The notes under the pieces were generated by a model. The model ran no database searches and had not been told where the DNA came from. It saw only the letters and a list, made by a program, of their open reading frames with translations. The translations under genes and the position numbers were made by a program. Source: Sipunculus nudus (Eukaryota; Annelida; Sipuncula; Golfingiida; Sipunculidae). From it: DNA of 64,000 bases. The DNA lies in contig CM049310.1 in NCBI GenBank assembly GCA_026874595.1, positions 18,638,058 to 18,702,057 of the forward strand, given 5' to 3'. How positions within the stretch are numbered: position 1 is the first letter of the stretch; the number at the start of each line of letters is the position of its first letter. Of this stretch, positions 13,101 to 16,100 are shown piece by piece.

Positions 13101-16100
13101 GTGTTCTCATGTCAGGCATGGCAAAGAAACTGTTTTTATAGATCTGCATGCAAAATTTCAGGTGAAAAGCTTTGGTGGTTGCAAAACATGCCCTGTTAAT
13201 AGTAGACAATCAGCCCTGTCCAGATACAAGACAGAAGGTCACTACAACTGTTCAAGTAACTTATAGCGGAACTGCAACATTGCGAAATTTCTCTCCCATT
13301 TACAAAAATGGAGTACAATGACTAAAACTTAACTTTACATGTATAAACAATGTGGCCAATGATCCACCTTCATCAATCAAAACTTACCTTAATCATGGTT
13401 GATGTCTGCATATCAGTCAATTTCTTTATGCAACGCTGGCCTCCAACAATATTACATACCTAAATAAACATATAAGTACATATCATTCTATATGCAAAGG
13501 TGAAATATTATCAATTCTATTAATTATAATGGTTCAAATATTTTAGTCAGGGATGTCTTGAAGCACTTCTTATGTTCATGTACACTTTGCAGTAAACATA
13601 AACATTTCATACCCAGAGTTGACACTCTTTTTAGAAAGAACTACACAAACACACTCAATATGCTAGTTGATCTTATGATGAAGTGCCTAACCTCCAGAGG
13701 CAGGTATGTGTGCTTCTGTTCTTGGCCGACTTGTAAACATGGCAAATGAGGATACCTGAAAAGAGATGAACACATGCACCTGAAGACGAAAACATCCCAA
13801 CCTACTGATGATCCATTCAGACAGATTGAAACAATCAATACAGTGAGAACATTTCCAGTGATTCCTGTGGTACTGACCACCATCTATGAGTTACATTCAC
13901 CCCTTCTCCGGGAATGTTCTGTTCCAACTGCGGGAATCTATCCCGGGGGTCATACATGTGAACTGGGTTGGGCATTATGCAATGACACCAACTCCCCTGA
14001 CCCCATCGCTCCCACCACTGTAAGGGGTGAAAATAGAAACAGGACCATTTGTGGATTTGAACACATAACCTGTGACACACAAGTCAGATGTTCTACCCTT
14101 ATAAAGCAAACTTCACTATCAATACCATTAGGAACACTTTTGTGCACACAGTTACATACAAATATATATATTTTTTAAATATAGGATTTGTCTGCCTATG
14201 GACCATGCAGTTTGAGCTAGCCAGGTATTACACCCTCTTTAATACCACATGATCTTAACTGAATGTGAATCCACACATTACATGTAAATAAACATATATA
14301 CTCACTGGAGTTTCATTTTGTAGCGTTCAAAGAAGTATTTGGCGACTGTGCATTCGACTGTTTGACCTGACTCAAGCTGCAAAGGGAACCTGAAAATGAA
14401 CAAAATATTGTTTTTTAAGTTTGCATGGCTGAAACTGAAGGAATTAATGCATCTGTGAAGGTCCATTAAGTCATTCAATCCACATTGTGGCAGATAAATA
14501 GGATATGCTACCATCCCTTTAAAGTTTAACTGAGAAACTTGTTAATAAGCTTATAAATCTTGGTATGAATTTCAATTTATTATTGTTTTACATTCAAGGG
14601 CTGTATGTTTTAATTGTCCCTGAAGAAGATGTACTTGTGAAGGGTGTTGAACACATTATGGTGTATGAACAATTTCTGATATTCTGTTACTGTGTCTTAG
14701 GGAGACAGAGTTCTGATTTTTTTTATTAAGGTTACATGATAGACCTATAATTTGCCCTATCTGCTGAACAAGGATGAAGGTATCCATACAATCAGAATTA
14801 CTTTTAATACTGGGCCCTCTGGATTTCTGAACTTTGATAAACTTGGTAGTAAGAATAACCAAAATGTAATACCCTGAGTAATACCCATGGTAAAACAGAG
14901 TGAATCTCTGAGAATCAAGATTGTCTGGCAAGGATCATACTTATGATTGTGTCTGGCAAGGATTAGACTTATGACTATGTCTGGCAAGGATCAGTCTTAC
15001 CACTGTGTCTGGCAAGGATCAGACATATGACTGTGTCTGGCAAGGATGAGACTTACAACTGTGTCTGGCAAGGATTGAATTTACGACTGTGTCTGGCAAG
15101 GGTAAGACTTACAAATGTGTCTAGCAAGGATAAGATTTATGATTGTGTCTGGCAGGGATTAGACTTAGGATTGTTTCTGGCAATGATCAGACTTACGATT
15201 GTGTCTGGGAAGGATTAAACTTACGATTGTGTCTGGCAAGGATTTGACTTACGATTGTGTCTGGCAAGGATTGGACTTATGATTGTGTCTTGCAAGAATT
15301 AGACTTATGACTGTATCTGGCAATGATCCGACTTTAGACTGCGTCTGGCAAGGATCAGACTTAAGACTGCGTCTGGCAAGGATCAGAATTACGACTGTGT
15401 CTGGCAAGGATCAGACTTACGAATGTGTCTGGCAAGGATCAGACTTACGACTGTGTCTGGCAAGGATCAGACTTACGACTGTGTCTGGCAAGGATCAGAC
15501 TTACGACTGTGTCTGGCAAGGATCAGACTTACGACTGTGTCTGGCAAGGATCAGACTTACGACTGTGTCTGGCAAGGATCAGACTTACGACTGTGTCTGG
15601 GCAGGTCTTCTGGTGACATTGCACACCCTGTACTTCCTCTTCATGGACCCACAGTGTGTTATCTCAACTTTCAACCCTGAAATCGAACCAAGAACCAGAT
15701 ACACGGATGGTTATTCTAAAACTGACAATATATACATCTTTAAGAATACAATATATCTTATTCATAGATCAGCATTAAAATACCGTAACAATATTTGAAC
15801 GTTTCAGATATAATAATTCCTTCCTAAACGCAACCCTGTCAGTATGGCCAACCTTGCATGGCATTAATTTTTTTATCATTTACTTCTCATCATAGTAAAA
15901 AGAAAAGTATAACTGATTTTGCAAGAAATACAATGGACACTCACAATATGTAAATGGAATTTATACCAAGAATTAAGAACTTGTAACAGGTTACTTATAA
16001 ACTCAGGGCTCAAGTTACGAAGGCAGCATTTTAAATAATAAATTCTTCAAAAGTTATGTCTTTTTCATTCCCTAAGATTGTATGTTACCACTAACCATAC

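Follow-up and report, generated by a model that had tools for sequence, protein, structure and literature searches.

The window, the whole stretch of 64,000 nucleotides that was analysed, carries part of an Argonaute gene (AGO-A) on its minus strand. An exon at 15589-15676 (minus strand) encodes part of the PAZ domain; its end, in phase 2, is the true 5' splice site. It is identified by a translation common to a second Argonaute gene, by its acceptor and by the PAZ match of the joined protein. Read from 15676 to 15589, the exon terminates in ...GCCCAGACACAGTC, followed by the true donor GTAAGT (15583-15588, minus strand, +1 G at 15588). Reading on across the junction gives TCG TAA, that is, PAQTQS and then a stop. 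A 28-bp minisatellite of 24.2 copies, delimited by Tandem Repeats Finder at 14922-15600 (minus strand), is joined to this exon, and its span implies that the array takes in the last 12 exon bases. The unit consists of these 12 or more exon bases together with the start of the intron, and 23 intronic copies adjoin the exon. Donor positions recur at 28-base steps from the true donor, 24 in all; GT is kept in 15 of them and an exact GTAAGT in 12, counting the true donor (11 of the 23 intronic copies). The six donors nearest the exon (units 0-5, 15433-15600, minus strand) have an identical context from -12 to +16 and are read as the most recently expanded block, with donors 6 and 7 differing from them. 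In the older, diverged units 6-23 (14922-15432, minus strand), GTAAGT is exact in six of 18 (units 6, 12, 13, 14, 17 and 19) and the +1 G is lost in nine. The rest of the 1199-nt intron (14390-14921, minus strand) runs to the acceptor TTTTCAG, located before the next Argonaute exon (14306-14389, minus strand). An earlier note on this DNA had described the array at the PAZ exon donor, its 28-bp period, the six identical units, the 12 exact donors and the TCG TAA past the junction, and this description stands.

Exons of AGO-A and its paralogue match from the N-terminal part to the end of PIWI. The joined AGO-A protein contains six Argonaute Pfam families above their cut-offs (N, L1, PAZ, L2, MID and PIWI) and aligns with the chain 'Protein argonaute-2' at 1450 bits over its length. 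The catalytic DEDH residues, presumably positions 597, 637, 669 and 807 of human AGO2, are identical in this alignment. The PAZ region scores 349 bits over 168 residues against Argonaute 1 of entry 1r4k, which we take to be the fly protein, higher than against the human-type Argonaute chains (330 bits over 180 residues for Protein argonaute-1). For dN/dS, 20 exon segments were compared and 789 codons in 19 segments were used, the second of two versions of a duplicated exon being excluded and a few junction codons borrowing an intron base. Over these codons dS is 0.66 and dN 0.022 (ratio 0.033). The part that ends with the exon next to the array has a ratio of 0.037 and the part beyond the array 0.029, a value that marks strong purifying selection on the Argonaute exons past the array. 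An unconstrained copy would show a far higher ratio, and AGO-A has therefore been used for most of the time since the duplication; the array may be younger than that, leaving room for a recent change in this gene. The two paralogues lie on one chromosome (C5:18.615-18.659 Mb and 59.856-59.90 Mb), and their synonymous divergence is very uneven by exon (dS from 0.18 to saturated), perhaps through gene conversion. Both have one exon in duplicate, its two versions being similar (window 10621-10502 and 9830-9711, minus strand in AGO-A) and perhaps mutually exclusive. A 609-aa open frame within the span of AGO-A (window 4330-6159, minus strand) reads, we presume, like a LINE reverse transcriptase.

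The equivalent exon of the second Argonaute (L007, C5:59.88 Mb) has the same 18 junction bases and is followed by a 232-nt intron, in which no tandem repeat is found. The 18-mer CCAGACACAGTCGTAAGT occurs seven times in the 1.43-Gb genome, six times in the Argonaute array and once at the paralogous junction, which exceeds chance. As is shown by this paralogue, with the junction and without the array, the array unit is a copy of the splice junction, in agreement with the growth from the junction proposed earlier. The junction being present there without an array, either it is older than the array or the paralogue has lost its own array, and loss thus stands as an alternative to gain. At two of 16 exonic bases the exon-side unit departs from the consensus, as expected if protein selection holds the exon while the copies drift. 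Divergence had also been described as rising away from the exon. The overall trend over units 1-23 stands (Spearman rho 0.58, permutation p 0.003), but it is a step and not a gradient, with units 7-23 flat (rho -0.05, p 0.57). Mismatches to the consensus number 0 in units 1-5 and 1-5 bases per unit thereafter, and the correlation with distance over units 1-23 is due to the identical block beside the exon. We read this pattern in the units as one recent expansion adjoining the exon.

A second donor array, not belonging to the Argonaute gene, is located at the end of the same window. It has a 35-bp unit and 31.4 copies (~31) on the minus strand, and extends from 63395 to 64000 and on to ~64496 past the window (L070). 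At its far edge, just beyond the window, lies a 153-nt exon-like frame (C5:18702690-18702538) with the acceptor TTTCCAG. In Pfam, the 51 residues of this frame are assigned to the tRNA (guanine-1)-methyltransferase family (E 3e-6; 27.5 bits, cut-off 27.3), and the PDB yields weak matches only, to six tRNA methyltransferase 10C-type chains (E 0.06 to 0.19). In the first copy, 27 exon-side bases recur at 80% identity or more, including 11 of the last 12; the donor of this copy reads GTCAGT. Past the junction, the frame stays open for 14 residues. The 35-bp array is seeded by this tRNA-methyltransferase-like exon. Other tandem repeats in the window are a 197-bp satellite (28129-35029, 35 copies, 96% matches) and a 30-bp array (54512-54967, 15.2 copies, 94% matches).

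Similar arrays are present elsewhere in the genome. A scan for three GGTAAGT at short spacing gives 1441 places, of which the 100 listed, from C1 and from C2 up to 8.5 Mb, merge into 16 arrays; sequence was examined for 15 of the 16, and the donor-side edge is visible in 14. Among these 16 listed arrays, four abut exons recognised by homology and three more repeat at least 22 exon-side bases (7/16), the remaining nine being weak, negative or unseen. The frame leading to the first donor matches ABCC2 of the PDB at the ABCC array (E 1.4e-6; Pfam below cut-off), EDEM1 at the EDEM array (E 1e-6; Pfam GH47 over cut-off), GTPBP1 at a third (E 8e-15; Pfam below cut-off) and SKAP55 at the array of a PH-domain gene (E 0.001; Pfam below cut-off). 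Because the query ends were set at the donor, these matches show the frame and not the exon end itself. Exon-side bases recurring in the first copy at 80% or more number 36 for ABCC and L072, 24 for EDEM and the PH-domain gene and 22 for L074; L057 reaches 35, but with only eight of the last 12. The GTPBP1 array repeats 11 only, and AGO-A 18. Past the junction, the frame remains open for 17 residues in EDEM, 12 in GTPBP1, 11 in L074 and one in the PH-domain gene. At its true edge, the L074 array meets a frame resembling an exon, the end of which is repeated in the array. No protein is recognised at the three arrays that repeat 22-36 exon-side bases (L057 in Pfam; L072 and L074 in Pfam and PDB). 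L058, L071, L075, L076, L079 and L080 yield no acceptable protein match (lowest Pfam E 0.079, for L058, below cut-off), and their register is weak where compared. At the C1 883k array, the edge was inspected and nothing exon-like is found; at C1 104.72 Mb, the array fills the whole stretch examined. At the ABCC edge (L073, C2:8.512 Mb), a 42-bp array stays in an open frame across the sequence examined, repeating 14 residues.

The donor motif was compared with control motifs using a longer form, CAGGTAAGT repeated three times. This form is found at 257 places genome-wide, and the 100 listed, merged by eye within 20 kb, reach C9:11.65 Mb. Among the places listed, donor-motif arrays number 18, versus 4, 11, 6 and 1 for four composition-matched motifs over the same range. 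These repeat counts are lower bounds, the controls vary widely and the comparison carries no p value; as counted, donor-motif arrays exceed each composition-matched control. Places genome-wide number 257, versus 133, 193, 91 and 88 for the controls and 91, 31 and 17 for three controls reversed. The shorter GGTAAGT triple goes the other way in places (1441 versus 2543 for the reversed motif); a few long arrays fill the first 100 matches of this reverse control, so distinct arrays were compared with the longer motif.

Within AGO-A, donors were scored with a weight matrix, and U1 pairing was computed in kcal/mol. The true donor scores 5.4 and pairs at -5.7 kcal/mol, versus a median of -7.4 for the 40 donors of both Argonaute genes and -7.6 for the paralogue's equivalent donor. 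Scores of the exact GTAAGT copies range from 4.8 to 6.2, and that of the copy at 15000 (GTAAGA) reaches 8.0, above the true donor; decoys equal to the true donor in score are present, which supports the decoy 5' splice sites of the earlier note. Splicing at copies 1, 2 or 3 is predicted to retain the immediate TAA stop. The array is not the source of this stop: any phase-2 intron that begins with GTAA yields TAA in frame, and the array-free paralogue likewise has an in-frame TAA past the junction. Over the 23 intronic copies, the donor hexamer has 2.5 mismatches per position versus 1.9 elsewhere in the unit. As few or fewer mismatches are seen in 19 of 28 cyclic six-base windows, the hexamer's own included, and preferential conservation of the donor bases among these copies is not found. 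The +1 G is lost in nine of 23 copies versus three of 23 for the -1 C; since the -1/+1 pair is a CpG and variants are common to neighbouring units, neither keeping nor purging of decoys is claimed.

RNA structure was rejected as a mechanism, since the fold of 211 nt round the first donors does not surpass that of shuffled sequence (z 0.55; 143 of 200 shuffles as good). The DNA fold of three units (z -0.86) gives no basis for one, and the plus-strand open frames across the Argonaute array follow from a unit without stops.

The array had been proposed to act as a length-dependent brake on AGO output. U1 would then be shared among identical donors, use of a copy or retention would lead to the TAA and to decay, and array length would set the output of AGO-A. 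Such a device would draw on the six identical donor contexts, the 12 of 24 exact GTAAGT and the equal donor scores, with the three copies tested as donors all giving an immediate stop, as does reading on; in human IFI6, according to the accessible part of the source, repeat copies are used as donors (PMC4526556). However, the donor bases are not selectively kept and the exons downstream are strongly constrained. The array-free paralogue has the in-frame stop too, and like arrays occur in unrelated genes, some with a frame open for at least 11 residues past the junction, which speaks against a brake. The regulatory reading of the AGO-A array is unsupported, and we consider it improbable.

Each unit also carries a weak acceptor-like AG, and many carry a donor, so that the array could be raw material for new exons. 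A 36-nt piece preceded by CAG, beginning and ending with ACACAGTC and followed by GTAAGT, could be spliced in frame into PAZ without a stop, adding 12 residues, and intron gain from repeats of this kind has been proposed in a study of the amphioxus globin genes (PMC3087553). Against this, the unit acceptor scores 4.9 (units 1-5), versus a median of 9.8 and a minimum of 3.5 for the 34 acceptors of both genes, from which the matrix itself was built. On that strand, 10% of all AGs in 60 kb score above 5.3, and the 64-, 92-, 120- and 148-nt versions contain stops. Exon creation of this kind is very unlikely. An array collapsed, stretched or misplaced in the reference is a similarly slight prospect. 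Tandem arrays are hard to assemble, and one amphioxus repeat of this type looked misassembled in the genome draft, as the available text of the paper has it (PMC3087553); against an artefact stand the many differences among the older units, the position of the array between unique intron and exon, and the similar arrays at other loci. Its copy number in the reference could be wrong. The window is rich in tandem repeats, but a pre-existing or mobile minisatellite that landed by the exon and resembles it by chance is scarcely credible, as a genome search with the array sequence, which skips very common words, returns no locus beyond the Argonaute array, and 18 junction bases are common to the paralogue.

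In conclusion, the AGO-A array is probably a minisatellite of the type called mirages in amphioxus, one that started from a duplicated 5' exon-intron boundary and has its copies tolerated, a member of a recurrent class and not an Argonaute-specific device. The evidence for a recurrent class is the like structure at exons of ABCC, EDEM, GTPBP1, the PH-domain gene and the tRNA methyltransferase. A piece of ~28 bp, comprising the last 12-17 PAZ exon bases and the first intron bases, would have been duplicated, and slippage or unequal exchange would then have increased the number of copies, with the latest increase next to the exon. The exon-most donor is presumably used in most transcripts, and occasional use of a copy or retention would meet the TAA at once and lead to nonsense-mediated decay; the copies would be tolerated while decaying by mutation. 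A point against toleration is that intact decoys come close to the true donor both in score and in pairing with U1. By analogy with IFI6, whose downstream units are used, use of copies in AGO-A is quite possible. SRSF1, in the accessible part of a human DOK7 paper, favours intron-proximal donors, a preference that would favour the AGO-A copies.

The recurrence, including the second case at the end of the window, is more interesting than the Argonaute case alone. We tentatively suggest, while regarding it as somewhat doubtful, that 5' splice sites are preferred starting points of minisatellites in this animal, with a continuing supply of decoy donors and of raw material for exons in functioning genes as the result; AGO-A would have been caught with a recently expanded block, and the length of its array may vary between individuals. 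Such arrays offer a natural test of how one donor is chosen by the spliceosome when many nearly identical ones are present, and of how a gene withstands growth of this kind. In the portions of the papers available, intron or exon gain from boundary minisatellites so far rests on a few amphioxus and human genes (PMC3087553, PMC2812944), and a genome rich in these arrays could test whether splice-junction minisatellites feed it. For Argonaute itself, the consequence is most likely little change.

Among known systems, the minisatellite units of human IFI6 (6-16) reportedly serve as multiple splice donors, as Turri et al. are said to have described in 1995. In arrays of the IFI6 type, use of a downstream unit leaves the frame open; in AGO-A, TAA stands directly after the junction. 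The accessible text on IFI6 has downstream repeat units used as donors, yielding three mRNA species (PMC4526556), whereas use of an AGO-A copy is predicted to meet TAA at once. Closely spaced alternative 5' splice sites are described, in the part of the source available, as competing donors that often give premature stops (PMC2423196); these are donor pairs, while AGO-A has a dozen near-identical donors. Variable tandem repeats at exon-intron boundaries of human duplicated genes may form new introns (PMC2812944, in its accessible portion); they are variable, lie in duplicated genes of primates and are half in coding sequence, while the AGO-A copies are intronic. The earlier note knew of no described case in AGO. 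Among the matches listed from the open-licence literature for Argonaute with minisatellite, intron or splice donor, no such case appears in a title or the opening of an abstract, and on the same basis the papers on boundary repeats in molluscs show none either; to this extent the statement on Argonaute is not contradicted, but the kind of array is described elsewhere.

The closest counterparts are the amphioxus mirages, tandem repeats across exon-intron boundaries in Adh3, troponin C, globins and PGBD5, which the available text of two papers reports not to disturb splicing (PMC3087553, PMC3902484). Both they and the AGO-A array, as far as that text describes them, are minisatellite-like duplications over a boundary with splice signals in many, not all, units. 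In AGO-A, the unit lies across the true boundary, the last 12 exon bases being identical in the first copy and 18 bases matching at 80% or more, and GT and GTAAGT are found in 15 and 12 of the 24 donor positions of the 24.2-copy array. A point against the likeness is that the homogeneous block of AGO-A abuts the exon, while the edges of the amphioxus globin clusters, in the same accessible text, were left out of homogenisation (PMC3087553). The AGO-A array further differs from the mirages, as these are presented there, in lying in an Argonaute gene, in having an array-free paralogue as a reference and in being matched by several other genes of its genome. The kind of array is already known from amphioxus mirages and human IFI6; its recurrence within one genome is new.
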